Origin: an alpha proteobacterium MED-G09
GTDB taxonomy: Bacteria > Pseudomonadota > Alphaproteobacteria > MED-G09
Direction of reading: 5' to 3'
Assembly: GCA_905182015.1 (NCBI GenBank)
Contig: CAJIZT010000003.1
Coordinates: 1-64,000 of the forward strand
DNA length: 64,000 bases
Each line of letters opens with the position of its first letter. The first letter of the stretch is position 1. A program made the position numbers and the translations under genes. The notes under the pieces were generated by a model. That model saw nothing but the letters and a program-made list of their open reading frames with translations, searched no databases and had not been told where the DNA came from. Below, in pieces: positions 25,976 to 33,811 of the stretch.

Positions 25976-28174
25976 ATGAGTCATCCAACTTTAGGAACTA
26001 AAAGTGCATCAACTGTTAATATTATTTTAGCTTTAATAATTTTTTTTATTATCCTTGTACAAACAGCATCTATAAATAAACCAGAAATAAAAAAAGATAT
26101 CCCCCTACCAAGTCATAATACTAAAATAATAGTAAACCAGGGAATTGGTGATATTGATACTCAAAGAATTATAAATGCTAATCAAGAGCCTCATAATTGG
26201 CTCTCTCATGGAAGGGATTATAACGAACAAAGGTACTCGCCGCTAAATAAAATTAACAAAGCCACCATAGACAATCTAAAGCTTGAATGGTCATTCGACA
26301 TGGATACTACAAGAGGGCTTGAAGCAACTCCAATAGTTGATAATGGTATTATGTTTGTCACAAGCGCATGGAGTATTATTTATGCTATTGACGCAAAAAC
26401 TGGAGAGGAAATATGGAGGTATGATCCAGAGGTACCTAGAGCATGGTCAAAGAAAGCTTGCTGTGATGTTGTAAATAGAGGTGCTGCAGTTTGGAAAGGA
26501 TTTGTTTTCTTTGCAACTTTAGATGGTCGCTTATTAAAATTGAAGGCAGGCACAGGTGCCGTTGTTTGGGAAATCAATACCATCATAAATAGAGAGCTTG
26601 ATTACACCATAACTGGCGCGCCTAGAATCGCTAACAATAAAATTTTTATTGGTAATGGAGGGGCAGACATGGGAGGGGTTAGAGGTTATGTAACCGCCTA
26701 TGATACTAATACCGGAAAATTAATTTGGCGATTTTATACTATTCCAGGCAATCCATCTCTTCCGTTTGAACATGAAGAGCTAGAAGATGCGGCAAAGACA
26801 TGGAGCGGTCAATGGTGGTTAAAGGGTGGTGGTGGAACAGTTTGGAATTCTATAGTATATGATCCTGATTTTAATCAAATCTATCTAGGAACTGGGAATG
26901 GTCAGCCTTGGAATATTGAATTAAGGTCACCTGGCGGAGGAGACAATCTCTATCTATCGTCAATCGTTGCATTGGATGCAGATACTGGAAATATGAACTG
27001 GTACTATCAAACAACACCAGAGGATAAGTGGGACTTTACAGCAACTCAAGATATCATGCTTGCGGATATGGTTGTTGATGGGGTCGATCAGAAGGTTTTA
27101 ATGCAAGCACCAAAGAATGGTTTTTTTTACGTTATAAACAGAAAGAGTGGAAAGCTATTAAGGGCTCATAATTATGTTCCAACAAATTGGGCTACCCACG
27201 TTGACTTAACAACTGGAAGGCCCGTAGTTAATAAAGGTAAAGATTATACCAAGAAGCCTGAATGGGTTTTACCCGGAAGTTATGGTGGCCACAATTGGCA
27301 AGCCATGTCATACGATCCTAATTTAGGGTTAGTTTATATCCCCACCCATGAAGTAGCAGCGGTTTATGTCCCCTTGAAGGGGCACTATAAAATGAAACCA
27401 GGGACGTTTAACACTGGAACAGATTTTTATGTAAATGATGCGGCTGCAACAATGTCAGGTATACCGCCTATCACTGGAGCAATTAAGGCATTCAACCCCT
27501 TAACTGGAGAAACAGTATGGTCTGTAGCGCATAATCATTTTTGGAACGGAGGGACTTTATCAACAGCAGGGGGAATTACTCTTCAAGGAAATTCATCTGG
27601 GCGTTTTGTCGCCTATGACTCAGAAGACGGATCAATTTTATGGAGCAAGGAAGTTCAAACAGGAATGATTGCACCACCCATTACATATGAGGTGGATGGT
27701 GAGCAATATATAGCTATACTTGCTGGCGATGGTGGTGCAGGGAATTCAGTGGGGGATAACTTTGGTGCTGATAAAGAAATAGCTGCAGTACTTTACGGAA
27801 ACAACGGCAGATTATTGTCCTTTAAGATAAACGGAAGGTCAAAACTACCCATTCTGAACAAAAGGGATCAAATAATTCCAGAACAACCCTTGATGAGCGC
27901 AGGCGCAGAGGATATTTTGATGGGAGAAAAACTTTATTCAAACTATTGTGGCGCTTGTCATGGTGCTGGAGTTCGAGGAAAAGCAATCGTCGACCTAAGA
28001 CACCTTACAAAAGAAAAACATGAAATATTTAATGATATCGTTTTAGGTGGGATGCTAGAAGAAAGTGGTATGGCAAACTTTTCAAGCCTTATAAACAAAA
28101 AGGAAACTGAACAAATTCATTCTTACATAATAAATACAGCAACCAAAGCAAGATCAAAGCAACTCAATAAATAA
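25976..28174 (+). CDS. Quinohemoprotein alcohol dehydrogenase (PQQ plus cytochrome c)
   Basis: This is a periplasmic PQQ-dependent alcohol or aldehyde dehydrogenase of 732 residues. A single N-terminal hydrophobic segment (about 16-34) looks like an anchor rather than a cleaved signal. The eight-bladed propeller contains the vicinal disulfide Cys162-Cys163, repeated tryptophan-docking motifs (GxIxWxYxTTP-like) and PEDKWDFTATQD, which carries the catalytic Asp. No Asp follows two residues later, so calcium rather than lanthanide use is expected. A short cytochrome c domain with CGACH (658-662) lies at the C terminus. AAGGAAG precedes the ATG. PQQ biosynthesis genes are not in the window. Confidence 0.9.
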   Translation: MSHPTLGTKSASTVNIILALIIFFIILVQTASINKPEIKKDIPLPSHNTKIIVNQGIGDIDTQRIINANQEPHNWLSHGRDYNEQRYSPLNKINKATIDNLKLEWSFDMDTTRGLEATPIVDNGIMFVTSAWSIIYAIDAKTGEEIWRYDPEVPRAWSKKACCDVVNRGAAVWKGFVFFATLDGRLLKLKAGTGAVVWEINTIINRELDYTITGAPRIANNKIFIGNGGADMGGVRGYVTAYDTNTGKLIWRFYTIPGNPSLPFEHEELEDAAKTWSGQWWLKGGGGTVWNSIVYDPDFNQIYLGTGNGQPWNIELRSPGGGDNLYLSSIVALDADTGNMNWYYQTTPEDKWDFTATQDIMLADMVVDGVDQKVLMQAPKNGFFYVINRKSGKLLRAHNYVPTNWATHVDLTTGRPVVNKGKDYTKKPEWVLPGSYGGHNWQAMSYDPNLGLVYIPTHEVAAVYVPLKGHYKMKPGTFNTGTDFYVNDAAATMSGIPPITGAIKAFNPLTGETVWSVAHNHFWNGGTLSTAGGITLQGNSSGRFVAYDSEDGSILWSKEVQTGMIAPPITYEVDGEQYIAILAGDGGAGNSVGDNFGADKEIAAVLYGNNGRLLSFKINGRSKLPILNKRDQIIPEQPLMSAGAEDILMGEKLYSNYCGACHGAGVRGKAIVDLRHLTKEKHEIFNDIVLGGMLEESGMANFSSLINKKETEQIHSYIINTATKARSKQLNK

Positions 28175-28729
28175 TTATTTTTTTGGAAGAGAAATTCTAT
28201 TTATTTCTTCAAATTCTATTCCAATCTCTCCAGAAAGATTGTTGTATCTGTCCGCACCCCTTTGCAAATCTTCAGGCAAGTCGCCATCGAATGGTTTAAT
28301 TTCAAGATTTGTAAAGCGGACTGCCAGAGGTGTTCCATTTTTAGTGATCTTTTCAATTTCTGTGATCTTTTCATAAATTAATGGGTTGAAAAAAATCTCA
28401 AGTAATCGAGGCTCATCTTTAATAAAACCTTTATTATCGACAGGTTGTAACAAAAGATAAATTTTTCCTTTAGTGTTATTTATTTTATCGGGCTCATTAA
28501 CTCCATGCCATAAAATTTTATAAGGCTTACTATCTTTAGTAAGATGATTGTCCTTATAAGGCCTACCCTGCATTTCACGAACAGATGTATAGGACGTTAT
28601 GAAAAATAGAAGCGATAAAATCGTAAAAAATATTTTTACTTTAGTCGAAAATTTAGTAAAAAAATTCAAACTTAATAAAAGAGAAAATAAAATTGCATAT
28701 GACACGCCTATCATGAGAGGGTTAAGCAT
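28175..28729 (-). CDS. Membrane protein, third gene of the ExbB/ExbD-like cassette
   Basis: I do not recognise a named family. The 184-residue protein has two hydrophobic segments (about 3-22 and 31-48), followed by a soluble region of about 130 residues with KILWHGVNEPDKINNTKGKI, IYLLLQPV and FFNPLIYEKI. It follows the ExbD-like gene by 2 nt, and GGTGGAG precedes the ATG. The constant gene arrangement suggests it works with the two upstream membrane proteins. It ends exactly where the convergent alcohol dehydrogenase gene ends. Confidence 0.65.
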   Translation of the reverse strand: MLNPLMIGVSYAILFSLLLSLNFFTKFSTKVKIFFTILSLLFFITSYTSVREMQGRPYKDNHLTKDSKPYKILWHGVNEPDKINNTKGKIYLLLQPVDNKGFIKDEPRLLEIFFNPLIYEKITEIEKITKNGTPLAVRFTNLEIKPFDGDLPEDLQRGADRYNNLSGEIGIEFEEINRISLPKK

Positions 28730-28731
28730 AT

Positions 28732-29358
28732 CTATTTTACTCCACCTGATATAATTGGTTTTTGTAGATAATTTAAATCAGCGACAATACCTTTATTGTC
28801 TAATAAGAATCTTACTGCCGTTACCTCTTCACCAGTTCTTTTTAAATAATAATCACCAAAATATACAACCTCTAATTTTGGATTAATTTTCTCAATCTTT
28901 ACCTTCACTTTAAGCGGGGTAATAAAGTTAGATTTATAATATAATAAATTAACAACATACTCCCCTGACATAAACCCTCTAATTGTTACCACCTCTTGGT
29001 TAGATGGATTCTCCACCTCAACCCCATCAATAATTAAACGATCCGCAAGTGTTCCCCTGTCATCACGGTCTAGATGCATTAAACCTGCTTGTTGTCTCTG
29101 AAAATACACTATATTACCTTTTGGATCTTCAACTATAAGGTCCACATCATCCGGATGATGATCTTCCCACTCTGCTGAAATTATAAACTCTGCTTTAGAT
29201 TCTATATTTCCACCATCCTGAGGATTCTGAATTAAAGAAAATGCTATAAAAAACATAAAAGCAAAACCTAGCAATGCATTAAATAAAAGGTCCGTAAAGG
29301 CATCACCGCTATTATCTTCATGAAATAATATTTTTTTACTCAATGTCATCTTCCACAT
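28732..29358 (-). CDS. ExbD/TolR-like membrane-anchored protein with an extracytoplasmic domain
   Basis: The 208-residue protein has a short cytoplasmic N terminus and one transmembrane segment (DLLFNALLGFAFMFFIAF, about 22-39) of ExbD/TolR/MotB type, with an Asp at its cytoplasmic edge. A periplasmic domain of about 160 residues follows. That domain has DDVDLIVEDPKGNIVYF, AGLMHLDRDDRG, NPSNQEVVTIRGFMSGEYVVN, which reads like a beta-sandwich. It overlaps the ExbB-like gene by 23 nt, or by 14 nt if the ATG at 29349 is used. This is not a classic ExbD, because the usual C-terminal domain is replaced. Confidence 0.7.
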   Translation of the reverse strand: MWKMTLSKKILFHEDNSGDAFTDLLFNALLGFAFMFFIAFSLIQNPQDGGNIESKAEFIISAEWEDHHPDDVDLIVEDPKGNIVYFQRQQAGLMHLDRDDRGTLADRLIIDGVEVENPSNQEVVTIRGFMSGEYVVNLLYYKSNFITPLKVKVKIEKINPKLEVVYFGDYYLKRTGEEVTAVRFLLDNKGIVADLNYLQKPIISGGVK

Positions 29359-29968
29359 AGAAAGCTAGATCATTTAATAACGATGTGATTGAAATAGCGC
29401 TAATATGAAACTGAATACGCAGCAGGGTATTAACAACAATACCAGTTAAAGTTGTGTATAAGGCTACAGCCATTCCAGAGCTCATTGATGCTAATGCAAT
29501 TTTTAAATTATCAGCGCTCGTGTTATCTAGACTTGCTATAGGTTGTAACATTAAAATAAAACCAATAATTGTTCCTAATAAACCTAATTTTAATGCAATT
29601 TCTGCAGCCAAGATCCCATAGCTCAACCTTTTATCAAGGTCTGATTCCAAAGCATTTAAAAGAATATCCTTATCTTCGCCAGCCCTTAGTCCATTAAAAA
29701 ACTTAGTAGTGGATAAGCCTCTTTTATTGAAATCCAAGGTATTAAAGGAGTCTTTTTCATCTGAAATGGTTTTTGATAAAATTAACCAGTAACCACTAGT
29801 AATCAACCATAAAAAACCAATAATTTTTGAAATGTGACTCTTATCACCTTCTATAATGATAGAAAGAAGGCTCCTTTCGTTTAAAAGCCAAAACCCAAAA
29901 ATAATAATCATGAAAAATAATAATGACCTAAGAATCCCAAGTGATTGAATTGATTGTCTTGATGACAT
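29336..29968 (-). CDS. MotA/TolQ/ExbB-like proton-channel protein
   Basis: This 210-residue inner-membrane protein has four hydrophobic segments (about 12-27, 44-63, 125-147, 165-187). The last two contain the family hallmarks LGLLGTIIGFILML and SGMAVALYTTLTGIVVN, which form the ion path in ExbB/TolQ. AAAGGAAC precedes the ATG. It is the first of three coupled genes, followed by an ExbD-like protein with an unusual periplasmic domain. No TonB or Tol-Pal gene is adjacent, so what it energises is unknown. Confidence 0.8.
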   Translation of the reverse strand: MSSRQSIQSLGILRSLLFFMIIIFGFWLLNERSLLSIIIEGDKSHISKIIGFLWLITSGYWLILSKTISDEKDSFNTLDFNKRGLSTTKFFNGLRAGEDKDILLNALESDLDKRLSYGILAAEIALKLGLLGTIIGFILMLQPIASLDNTSADNLKIALASMSSGMAVALYTTLTGIVVNTLLRIQFHISAISITSLLNDLAFYVEDDIE

Positions 29969-30075: not shown

Positions 30076-31410
30076 ATGAAAGAAAAAATCCTTATCGAGA
30101 ACGGAACAATCATTGATGGAACTGGCTCAAAGGAATATGTAGATAGTGTTCTTATCGAAAATGGTATAATTTCAGCGATAGGTAAAGACGCTGAAGCATT
30201 TTCTAGTGATGCAACTCTCAAAAAAATCAATGCTGCAGGACAAACAGTTATGCCTGGCCTTATTGATTCTCATTGCCATATAACTTTTGATGAACCAACC
30301 TCAAACGATGAACTTTTTTTTCATCGCCGTGAAGGTCTGGCAGCAATAGTCGCAGCACATAATGCTCGAAAGGTTTTACTATCGGGTGTAACTGGTTTTC
30401 TAGATGCAGATTGTATCTTCGATACTGGCGTTGATCTAAGAGATGCTATTGAATCTGGCTATGTTGAAGGACCAAGGATGTCTTCAGGAGGGAATGCTCT
30501 CTTAACATCTGTAGGAGGTACTGCTGGGCGACTGATACCTGATGATGGCTTAAGGGGTTATGCAAAGGTCGTTCATGATAAAGATGACATAGTGAGGGAA
30601 ATAAGAAGACAAATTAAAAATGGAGTTGATTGGATTAAAATCCATGTTACCGGATTAGTGCCAAGGCAAAAAGATGCAGGCGAGATTTCTGCATGGTCAT
30701 ATGAAGAACTTAAACTGGCATGTGATGTTGCTCACGACCTTGGAGTTCCGGTTGTTGGGCATTGTAGAAACGCAAAAAGTATTATTGATAGTGTAAGCGC
30801 AGGCATGGATATGGTTCTTCATGCAACCTTCATGAATGAAGAAGCCTTTGAAACTGTGTGTGAACATAAAACTCCACTGGTACCAACATTTACATTTCAA
30901 GCAAATCTAGCTGATTTTGGTGAAAAAGTTGGCGCCGATGAAAGACTCAAGGATATCTTTAAGAGAGAAATAGAAGAAAGTTCTGAAATGTTAAAAAGAG
31001 TTCATGACGCCGGAGTGCCAATCTTATGCGGAACTGAGAGTGGTTTTTCATTAACTCCTTATGGTGAGTGGCATTATAGAGAAATGGAAGTTTTCGTTAA
31101 AGAAATCGGTCTAACAAATTTAGAGGCTATTCAGTGCGCTACACAAAAGAATTCTTTTGCTCTGAAAATGGAAGGCAAGGTTGGAACAATAGAAAAGGGA
31201 ATGCTGGCTGATATACTCATAGTGGATGGAAATCCTTTAGATGATATAACAATTTTAGGTAATAAATCTAAATTATCACATATTTTTCTTGATGGAAAAG
31301 AAGTGGATCAAAAAATTAAAGTCCCTAATGTTGAAAAAATCCCAGGATGGAGGGTTTCTCCTTACTCCTCGTCAATTCTGACACAAGATTTAGCAAAAAA
31401 AGATAGTTAA
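30076..31410 (+). CDS. Metal-dependent amidohydrolase
   Basis: This hydrolase has the TIM-barrel amidohydrolase fold, 444 residues, of the imidazolonepropionase/prolidase-like group. Metal ligands are in PGLIDSHCHITF (about 63-73), VVGHCRNAKS and LHATFMN, with the terminal GTESGF Asp/Glu position. The frame also has the flanking composite beta-sandwich (IENGTIIDGTGSKEYVDSVLI at the N terminus). GAGGTG precedes the ATG. Its last codon overlaps the ATG of the first P450 (TAATG). This makes it the head of a probable catabolic operon. The substrate is unknown. Confidence 0.87.
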   Translation: MKEKILIENGTIIDGTGSKEYVDSVLIENGIISAIGKDAEAFSSDATLKKINAAGQTVMPGLIDSHCHITFDEPTSNDELFFHRREGLAAIVAAHNARKVLLSGVTGFLDADCIFDTGVDLRDAIESGYVEGPRMSSGGNALLTSVGGTAGRLIPDDGLRGYAKVVHDKDDIVREIRRQIKNGVDWIKIHVTGLVPRQKDAGEISAWSYEELKLACDVAHDLGVPVVGHCRNAKSIIDSVSAGMDMVLHATFMNEEAFETVCEHKTPLVPTFTFQANLADFGEKVGADERLKDIFKREIEESSEMLKRVHDAGVPILCGTESGFSLTPYGEWHYREMEVFVKEIGLTNLEAIQCATQKNSFALKMEGKVGTIEKGMLADILIVDGNPLDDITILGNKSKLSHIFLDGKEVDQKIKVPNVEKIPGWRVSPYSSSILTQDLAKKDS

Positions 31411-32606
31411 TGGTAGATCATATTTTTACAGATTATAACGAAGCAACTAGCGCCCTAAGAATTAAAGACCTCAAGCAGTCACTTTATGACGATGGTGAGA
31501 TTATTATGGATCAAGTATTAGTTTGCCTACATGGTGATGAGCATAAAAAAAGAAGGAAATTAGAAAATAAAATATTTACTAGAGACGTGTTTCAGTATTA
31601 TGAAAATACCATCTTCCCCAAAACCATAAACAAGACATTAGAGCCATATAAAAAATCCGGGAAGATGGATCTGGTAGATTATGGATTTCGGGTTCTCTTA
31701 AATCTTACAGCAGATTTCTCGGGCATAGATAGGCCAGAGAAATCTATAAGCGAAACTGAAACACTTTTAAGATTATTAAAAGTTTTTGCCTCTGGAGCAA
31801 CACTCCATCACTCAACAAGGGATCATGAGGAGGTAAAGTCTGAAGTAAGAGACGCATTAAAAGAGTTCGATCAGAAATTTCTTATTCCTTCGATTAGTAG
31901 AAGAAAAATGATTATTAATAAAGAATCTTCTGATGAACTTCCGAATGATATTCTAACGATATTATTGGCAAATGAAGACCAGTTGAATCTTCCGTATGAT
32001 GTTTTGCAAAGAGAAATAGCTTTTTATCTTTTGGCTGGAGCCCAAACCTCAATTCATTCATTAGTTCACGCCTTTCATGAAATGCATAATTGGTTAAAGG
32101 ATAATCCAGAAAGAAAAAGTAGTATAAAAAATGATCCAATTTTTATACAAAAATGCTTTTTGGAAAGTACACGTTTACATCCATCTAGTCCTGTAGCATT
32201 AAGAAAGCCCGTATGCCCTGTTAAGCTTCCAGGAGACAAAGATGCTCAGCCAGACGATAATGTTGTGATCGATTTATACAAATCCAATCGTGATAAAAAA
32301 ATATTTGGTGATGATGCTGATAAATTTAATCCTGATCGAAAAACTCCTGATGGTCAAAATTTATATGGATTGTCGTTTGGTCTGGGAATGCATTCTTGTA
32401 TTGGAAGAAATCTAGCTGCTGGTGTAAATTCAAAACCGGATACCAATCCAGATAATCATCACTATGGAACAGTGACAATGATAATGAGAAAGTTAATTTC
32501 TTGCGATGCATTTCCCGATCCAAATAATACTCCAAAAATGGATGAGAAAACAAAAAGGCCAAACTGGGGATATTATCCAATTACCTTTAATGCTAAAGGA
32601 GGTTAA
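31410..32606 (+). CDS. Cytochrome P450 (first of two paralogues)
   Basis: This is a soluble heme-thiolate monooxygenase of 398 residues. The ExxR pair is Glu252/Arg255 in ESTRLHPSSPVALR and the heme-ligand Cys330 lies in FGLGMHSCIGR. The I-helix reads AGAQTS (209-214), where most P450s have an acidic residue before Thr, so the usual proton-relay acid is missing. Its closest visible relative is the next gene. No ferredoxin or reductase gene is adjacent. It is translationally coupled to the amidohydrolase. Confidence 0.9.
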   Translation: MVDHIFTDYNEATSALRIKDLKQSLYDDGEIIMDQVLVCLHGDEHKKRRKLENKIFTRDVFQYYENTIFPKTINKTLEPYKKSGKMDLVDYGFRVLLNLTADFSGIDRPEKSISETETLLRLLKVFASGATLHHSTRDHEEVKSEVRDALKEFDQKFLIPSISRRKMIINKESSDELPNDILTILLANEDQLNLPYDVLQREIAFYLLAGAQTSIHSLVHAFHEMHNWLKDNPERKSSIKNDPIFIQKCFLESTRLHPSSPVALRKPVCPVKLPGDKDAQPDDNVVIDLYKSNRDKKIFGDDADKFNPDRKTPDGQNLYGLSFGLGMHSCIGRNLAAGVNSKPDTNPDNHHYGTVTMIMRKLISCDAFPDPNNTPKMDEKTKRPNWGYYPITFNAKGG

Positions 32607-32608
32607 TA

Positions 32609-33811
32609 GTGAGTAAATTTGAGATCTCTGATTACAATACCATCAAATCTGTCTTGGTTAATAGGAATCTTAAACAAGCTCTTTATGACAAAGGCAAGGT
32701 TATAATGGATGGCGTTCTTCTTACTCTTCATGGTGATGATCATAGAAAAAGAAAAAAATTAGAACATAAAATATTTCAAAGAGATTTTTTTAAATATTAT
32801 GAGCATGAGTTATTTCCAAGAACTCTAAATGAAACAATTAAACCATTTCTAGATAAAGGAAGTGCTGATCTATTAGACTTTGGTTATAGAATAACCATGA
32901 ATCTCACAGCAGACTTTGCTGGAATAGATCGATCTAAAAAAACACCTGAAGAAACTGAAGATCTTTTATCATTGGTAAAAATATTTAGCCAAGGAGCAAC
33001 CCTTGTTCACTCTAAAAGATCTCACGAGGAAGTGAATCAAGAGGTTTTAAAGGCTTTGGATATATTTGAAGAAAAATTCCTTTTACCATCAAAAAAAAGG
33101 CGTGAAGTCTTAATAAAACAATACAAAAATAATGAAATCAGAGAGGCTGATTTACCTAGGGATGTTTTAACCATACTAATGATCAACGAAGATAATATCC
33201 CCCTTAATGATGATTTGATTAAAAGAGAAATAGCCTTCTATTTACAAGCAGGGTCTCATAGTACGGCTAACTCAATGACCCATGCCTTACATGAAATTTT
33301 TACTTGGGGAGAAAGCAACCCTTCAGAGCTCAATAGACTAAAAAATGACAAACTTTTTTTACAAACGTGTGTTCATGAAAGTATGAGGCTACATCCAGCA
33401 AGCCCTGTGGCATGGCGAAAATCGCAATGTCCCGTTGAAATAGAAAATAATTTAATACTAAAGAAAGATGATTTAGTTATTATGGACCTGCACAAGGCAA
33501 ATCAAGATAAGGATATTTTTGGAACAGATTCAGATATCTTTAATCCTCATAGAGTTATTCCTAAAAATCAATTTCTATGGGGTCTTACTTTTGGAATAGG
33601 ACTTCATATGTGCTTTGGAAGAGACCTAGATGGAGGCGTTGTTTCAAATGAAAATACTGACCCCAGCAAACATCAATATGGTATAGTTACGTTGTTAGTA
33701 AAAAAAATTCTAGATGAAAAAGGTCTTCCAGACCCTAAAAGTAATCCAGAAGTTGATGTTAATACAGAAAGACCAAACTGGGGATCATACCCAATTATAT
33801 TTGGAGAATAA
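32609..33811 (+). CDS. Cytochrome P450 (second paralogue)
   Basis: This 400-residue P450 is collinear with the preceding one over its whole length. Shared motifs include LHGDxHxKRxKLExKIFxRD, NLTADFxGIDR and TERPNWGxYPI-like ends. ExxR is Glu257/Arg260 and the heme Cys335 lies in FGIGLHMCFGR. The I-helix is AGSHST (214-219), again lacking the acidic residue. The start is GTG with a very strong AAAGGAGG six nt upstream. The two probably arose by tandem duplication and then diverged in the active site. Confidence 0.9.
   Translation: MSKFEISDYNTIKSVLVNRNLKQALYDKGKVIMDGVLLTLHGDDHRKRKKLEHKIFQRDFFKYYEHELFPRTLNETIKPFLDKGSADLLDFGYRITMNLTADFAGIDRSKKTPEETEDLLSLVKIFSQGATLVHSKRSHEEVNQEVLKALDIFEEKFLLPSKKRREVLIKQYKNNEIREADLPRDVLTILMINEDNIPLNDDLIKREIAFYLQAGSHSTANSMTHALHEIFTWGESNPSELNRLKNDKLFLQTCVHESMRLHPASPVAWRKSQCPVEIENNLILKKDDLVIMDLHKANQDKDIFGTDSDIFNPHRVIPKNQFLWGLTFGIGLHMCFGRDLDGGVVSNENTDPSKHQYGIVTLLVKKILDEKGLPDPKSNPEVDVNTERPNWGSYPIIFGE

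Follow-up and report, generated by a model that had tools for sequence, protein, structure and literature searches.

A conserved three-gene cassette that looks like a relative of ion-driven stators, and its genetic link to PQQ-dependent alcohol dehydrogenase

Stator-type motors are known to drive flagella, gliding, TonB import, the Tol-Pal system, type IX secretion and phage defence. Among their channel subunits, ExbB and TolQ have three helices and MotA has four. We analysed a window of 64,000 nucleotides from an alphaproteobacterium of the MED-G09 lineage (assembly GCA_905182015.1, contig CAJIZT010000003.1, positions 1 to 64,000), in which three consecutive open reading frames (ORFs), here termed A, B and C, run in this order on the minus strand from position 29968 to 28175. 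A and B share 23 nt, and a gap of 2 nt separates B from C. The preliminary description of this locus had placed three overlapping or nearly touching genes here, and both their boundaries and their spacing were confirmed.

Gene A (29336 to 29968, minus strand; 210 aa) encodes a channel subunit of the MotA/TolQ/ExbB family, as seen from its match to PF01618 (42.5 bits, E 6.6e-11, cut-off 22.9) and from its hydropathy, which predicts four membrane segments. It had been taken for an ExbB/TolQ-type channel; the PF01618 match agrees with this, but the four hydrophobic segments are as in MotA, instead of the expected three. The protein carries a GxxGT motif (GLLGT) in TM3 and a TT motif in TM4, comprising T133, T172 and T173, which are conserved in 127/127, 123/127 and 127/127 aligned homologues, respectively. 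A stayed far below every subtype cut-off (score/cut-off: MotP 24.5/373, exbB2 15.2/135, tolQ 12.8/221, ZorA 19.6/100), and a sequence search of the PDB gave no significant match for it. Judged by its profile scores, A is a member of the PF01618 superfamily outside ExbB, TolQ, MotA, PomA and ZorA proper.

Gene B (28732 to 29358, minus strand) encodes 208 aa, modelled by AlphaFold (pLDDT 88) as a helix, a short linker of low confidence and a beta-sandwich. The membrane helix spans residues 16-42 (29233 to 29313, minus strand) and the predicted periplasmic beta-sandwich residues 58-196 (28771 to 29187, minus strand), which bears out the beta-rich, non-canonical periplasmic domain suggested earlier. 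Within the helix, Asp23 (29290-29292, minus strand) occupies a nearly invariant alignment column (57/60 aligned rows, the remaining three having an Asp three residues earlier) and is the putative ion-binding Asp of ExbD/TolR/MotB-type partners. W64, D71, D73, R98, D99, E122, R127 and N137 are invariant in 61/61 sequences. The single helix with its membrane Asp is in line with the earlier assignment of B to the ExbD/TolR type; however, PF02472 was missing from B of the window (searched to E 10) and from the families listed for its 61 homologues, and hhalign gave a probability of 0.7% for B against the genome's own ExbD. An OmpA-like peptidoglycan-binding domain was likewise found neither in B of the window nor among the families listed for the 61 homologues. 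B keeps the membrane Asp of ExbD/MotB-type subunits but is not an ExbD/TolR protein. No Pfam, NCBIfam or PADLOC family matched it, nothing significant was found in the PDB by sequence with B or its profile, and a PDB fold search returned no match at E <= 0.001; the top-scoring Foldseek rows had TM values below 0.2 and were dismissed as chance. DUF2135, considered as a family for B, was matched by 6/61 homologues only (best E 0.017) and was kept as a lead, not as an assignment. Against PHROG 1735, a phage family without assigned function, B scored E 4.8e-5, and we observed a weak likeness of its domain to phrog_1735 and to a virion structural protein (PDB 11pb_C) through a DDVD-V--P-G motif.

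Gene C (28175 to 28729, minus strand) encodes 184 aa and had been described as a two-helix membrane protein, in agreement with its AlphaFold model (pLDDT 85), which has two N-terminal helices (in residues 2-53) followed by a small alpha/beta domain. As with B, the profile search yielded no Pfam, NCBIfam or PADLOC family, the matches of C to ORMDL and DUF4131 being weak and below cut-off; a PDB fold search gave no match at E <= 0.001. DUF4131, which we take to be the N-terminal region of ComEC, was weakly matched by 18/70 C homologues (best E 1.4e-4), and the weak fold matches of C included B subunits of toxins (PltB and ArtB, for example), a group with OB folds. The two kinds of match, both weak, agree with each other, and the small domain is possibly OB-like. 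The loop between the helices has a mean net charge of +1.3 and is positive in 60% of sequences; since a positive loop makes the C-terminal domain lean to the periplasm, the small domain is probably periplasmic.

The trio resembles ExbB/ExbD and TolQ/TolR in its tandem of a PF01618 channel subunit and a single-helix partner with a membrane Asp, but differs from them in that B has a predicted beta-sandwich in place of PF02472, A has four segments and lies far under the exbB2 and tolQ cut-offs, a two-helix protein (C) is added, and TonB, TolA and Pal are absent; the cassette contains no TonB gene, and C matched no TonB profile. MotA/MotB and PomA/PomB share with it the four-segment channel, the GxxGT and threonine motifs and the membrane Asp in the partner, whereas B has no OmpA-like domain, A is far under the MotA/PomA equivalog cut-offs, and the trio lies outside flagellar clusters (with one case, L149, of a FliG-like gene downstream). 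To the ZorAB proteins of Zorya the likeness is limited to A, which weakly matches ZorA profiles (best E 6.6e-5); at 210 aa against profiles of 383-699 aa, A has no long tail, a defence context is missing, and neither B nor C matched PADLOC. The MotAB homologues termed generic ion transporters (GIT; PMC12505986) likewise fall into the broad class of uncharacterised non-flagellar relatives of stators; that survey names DUF3450/DUF2341 appendages on A, and neither the trio, nor the B domain, nor a PQQ link appeared in the searched passages, and the searched passages of a review of 5:2 motors (PMC9389320) do not describe the trio either. Taken together, the trio looks like an undescribed ion-driven stator relative that is not ExbBD, TolQR, MotAB or Zorya, and the separate energised envelope machine of the preliminary description is supported, where "energised" is suggested by the family of A and by residue conservation.

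The preliminary description had reckoned with the possibility that the three genes do not occur together elsewhere. Relatives of B were found in 24/61 related genomes and in 61/387 genomes of the window's class, and when 84,980 species genomes were scanned, at least 406 related sites came up. The top 80 of these, nearly all in metagenome-assembled or single-cell genomes, belong to Alphaproteobacteria (PS1 clade, Rhodobiaceae), Gammaproteobacteria (SAR86, Pseudomonadales) and a few Myxococcota. In 111/126 related loci A, B and C lie side by side within 300 nt on one strand, with median overlaps of 11 nt (A-B) and 4 nt (B-C), and most of the other 15 reflect contig ends, ORF calls that extend too far, copies in which the genes are reordered or split, or lone copies of B; rearranged copies include A-C-B (L026), B-A-B-C (L161) and one with an inserted gene (L044). 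The three genes form a cassette, and this cassette is conserved in marine and soil bacteria that are only distantly related. On viral contigs no relatives were found, and on plasmid records B occurred only on Azospirillum replicons, the two regions retrieved carrying no annotation. ORF calls were noisy in the GC-rich distant loci, and neighbourhoods there were interpreted for the trio only.

Several variations were observed around the cassette. Additional, lone B genes, with neither A nor C next to them, were seen in L164, L179, L181, L182 and L183 (genomes G331, G391 and G088); in L164 and L181 the lone B adjoins a substrate-binding protein and PedC, and one of the B copies in L164 is missing the first part of the membrane helix, with its Asp. 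A conserved lipoprotein family with YFPL near its N-terminus directly follows C in L031, L165, L168, L171, L173, L176 and L177, which represent one branch of the near subfamily (with three copies in L168). The FliG-like gene mentioned above, recognised by eye, directly follows a trio of the distant type in one genome (L149:8873-9895). In the window itself, two adjacent ORFs of ~400 aa at 31410-33811 look by eye like cytochrome P450 paralogues; their neighbours, likewise judged by eye, are a gene for a short-chain dehydrogenase and an amidohydrolase-like one.

The preliminary description had left the output of the machine open, with no TonB, Pal or flagellar partner adjacent. The absence of TonB stands, but a conserved neighbour had been overlooked: a PQQ-dependent alcohol dehydrogenase (PQQ-ADH) with a C-terminal cytochrome c domain (25976 to 28174, plus strand; 732 aa), whose stop codon abuts that of C in a convergent pair. 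The enzyme scored 611.6 bits against TIGR03075 (cut-off 480) and has a CxxCH at residue 658 and a WDFT motif; a DYD-type motif is associated with lanthanide enzymes, and because this partner has WDFT in its place, a lanthanide-specific role was rejected for the window. Of the 80 nearest loci, 67, from Alpha- and Gammaproteobacteria and Myxococcota, have a convergent PQQ-ADH-cytochrome c gene directly downstream of the trio, with a gap mostly <150 nt, and the next most frequent neighbour cluster was present in 19/90 loci. Other arrangements exist as well: L170 has a same-strand run of A-B-C-X-PQQ_ABC_repeats-PQQ_ABC_bind-PedC-cytochrome c, three of them above curated cut-offs; in L029, L161, L163, L167 and L175 a PQQ-ADH flanks the trio at its opposite end, and L032 has tandem PQQ-ADHs upstream; and PQQ_ABC_ATP or PedC is found near the trio in L017/L029, L164 and L181 (PQQ_ABC_ATP in L017, PedC in L164 and L181). 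The trio is found in common operons or neighbourhoods with components of the ped-type systems (PQQ-ADH, PQQ_ABC_ATP/bind/repeats and PedC); PedA1A2BC among these systems is an ABC importer and not ion-driven (PMC6839425). The searched passages of the 2026 ped-cluster review (PMC12997753) contain no mention of ExbB or TolQ, and among titles and abstracts of the open-access literature none was found linking ExbB-type proteins with PQQ-ADH.

At the level of genomes of the class, PQQ-ADH (E < 1e-100) is present in 25/27 genomes with the near subfamily versus 67/331 (20%) without any trio (Fisher P 2.6e-14, uncorrected for shared ancestry); the two genomes with a near-type trio and no PQQ-ADH are G136 and G289. 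All of the 11 near-subfamily genomes without a PQQ-ADH at the usual place have one above cut-off elsewhere (11/11). The trio of the near subfamily is genetically linked to PQQ-ADH, and this linkage is recurrent; the neighbour is the best clue to the trio's output. In most of the distant subfamily, which comprises Azospirillum and other Rhodospirillales-type genomes, no recurrent linkage to PQQ-ADH or to PQQ_ABC/PedC was found. Because this subfamily is mostly without a PQQ gene beside the trio, and 17/29 of its genomes have no PQQ-ADH, PQQ is not the whole function. In a quick tree, with some long branches, both main clades include PQQ contexts; those besides the convergent pair lie basally in the near clade and at two points of the distant clade. 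The convergent pair itself is essentially one clade, so its conservation does not amount to 67 independent events, and convergent genes are not co-transcribed, which speaks against the tie to PQQ.

We propose that A, B and C would assemble in the inner membrane into a complex akin to the ion-driven stators, in which a ring of A probably surrounds an axle of B, presumably as a 5:2 assembly, with C as an accessory. Ion flow through A and B, involving Asp23 of B and the threonines conserved in A, would set B in motion. With its linker (~residues 43-57), B seems unable to extend as far as the outer membrane; given this short linker and a cassette devoid of any TonB-like protein, the target of the B domain is probably a partner at the inner membrane's periplasmic face. 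For the near subfamily, which includes the trio of the window, this partner would most likely be the periplasmic PQQ-dependent alcohol oxidation system, and the job may be the handling of PQQ or a metal cofactor, activation of the holoenzyme, or movement of substrate. We regard it as very probable that the trio is a motor and as fairly probable that it is functionally tied to PQQ; the full reading, an ion-driven A/B complex with an accessory C that in the near subfamily acts on the PQQ oxidation system, is held tentatively, at a little under an even chance. That the exact work is cofactor handling or enzyme activation is put forward with low confidence, and an ion-motive-force motor doing mechanical work on PQQ-ADHs, by loading, activating or recycling them, is unlikely. 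We know of no energised machine for loading, activating or recycling PQQ-dependent alcohol dehydrogenases.

The trio could instead be a general-purpose ion-driven machine of the envelope, working on the cell wall, the outer membrane or lipoproteins, with its link to PQQ-ADH an ancient co-inheritance within one clade. The distant subfamily without PQQ genes and the branch in which a lipoprotein gene comes fourth would fit such a machine, and they indicate that the trio is either older and broader than a PQQ role or has adopted one. The source genome (1.35 Mb, 97.9% complete) is compatible with it too: it encodes one PF02472 protein and three PF01618 proteins including A, no separate TolQ/TolR pair was found in it, and with the sole PF02472 protein located elsewhere an extra envelope motor might be useful. 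However, PQQ contexts are repeated and varied, among them PQQ/ped-type operons on the same strand and two points of the distant clade, and the near-subfamily trio co-occurs with PQQ-ADH at the genome level; we consider a general-purpose machine rather unlikely.

Quite unlikely, in our view, is a TonB-like energiser that would power the outer-membrane import of PQQ, alcohols or a metal for the dehydrogenase. PqqC is absent in 9/9 convergent-pair genomes of the class and in 47/47 genomes reached via convergent loci (many of them incomplete), and because of this absence the convergent-pair bacteria probably take up external PQQ; import of PQQ by a TonB-dependent receptor, PqqU, is known (PMC12124388), and passages of the ped-cluster review call the passage of lanthanides across the outer membrane of Pseudomonas unresolved (PMC12997753). 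In the source genome (G000), PQQ-dependent dehydrogenases are encoded and PqqC was not found. Yet among the tested PQQ-ADH genomes without the trio only 23/46 have PqqC; since half of them also lack it, its absence is no evidence for PQQ import by the trio, and the notion that the trio explains PQQ auxotrophy was rejected as stated. PqqC absence seems to follow enzyme type, by inspection mostly the long cytochrome-fused enzymes, and trio-bearing PQQ producers exist (20/25). Further points against an import energiser are the short linker of B and the lack of a TonB-like protein in the cassette, the lack of a receptor gene among the recurrent neighbours, and the WDFT instead of a DYD-type lanthanide motif in the window enzyme. 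Moreover, the source genome already has a Ton system of its own: its only ExbD (PF02472) and the two other PF01618 proteins are clustered on contig C11, away from the trio, with a TonB-like ORF (assigned by eye) after the ExbB/ExbB/ExbD cluster, and there are 16 matches to the TonB-receptor family. Together with the missing PF02472 and the hhalign result, this location answers the question, raised in the preliminary description, of whether B might be a known ExbD/TolR with a TonB partner: B cannot be so assigned. Very unlikely, finally, is a membrane scaffold or sensor in which A and B no longer conduct ions, for although ion flow through A and B is deduced from their sequences and lone B copies occur in some genomes, the membrane Asp and the threonines of A are almost invariant in very divergent sequences, and a mere scaffold would need neither.

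A conserved trio of the stator kind tied to alcohol oxidation in abundant ocean groups such as PS1 and SAR86 would extend the range of tasks performed by such motors by a new class, and the reading proposed here gives proteins without a family assignment a testable function. The trio may also explain how PQQ users that are seemingly unable to make PQQ run their dehydrogenases.
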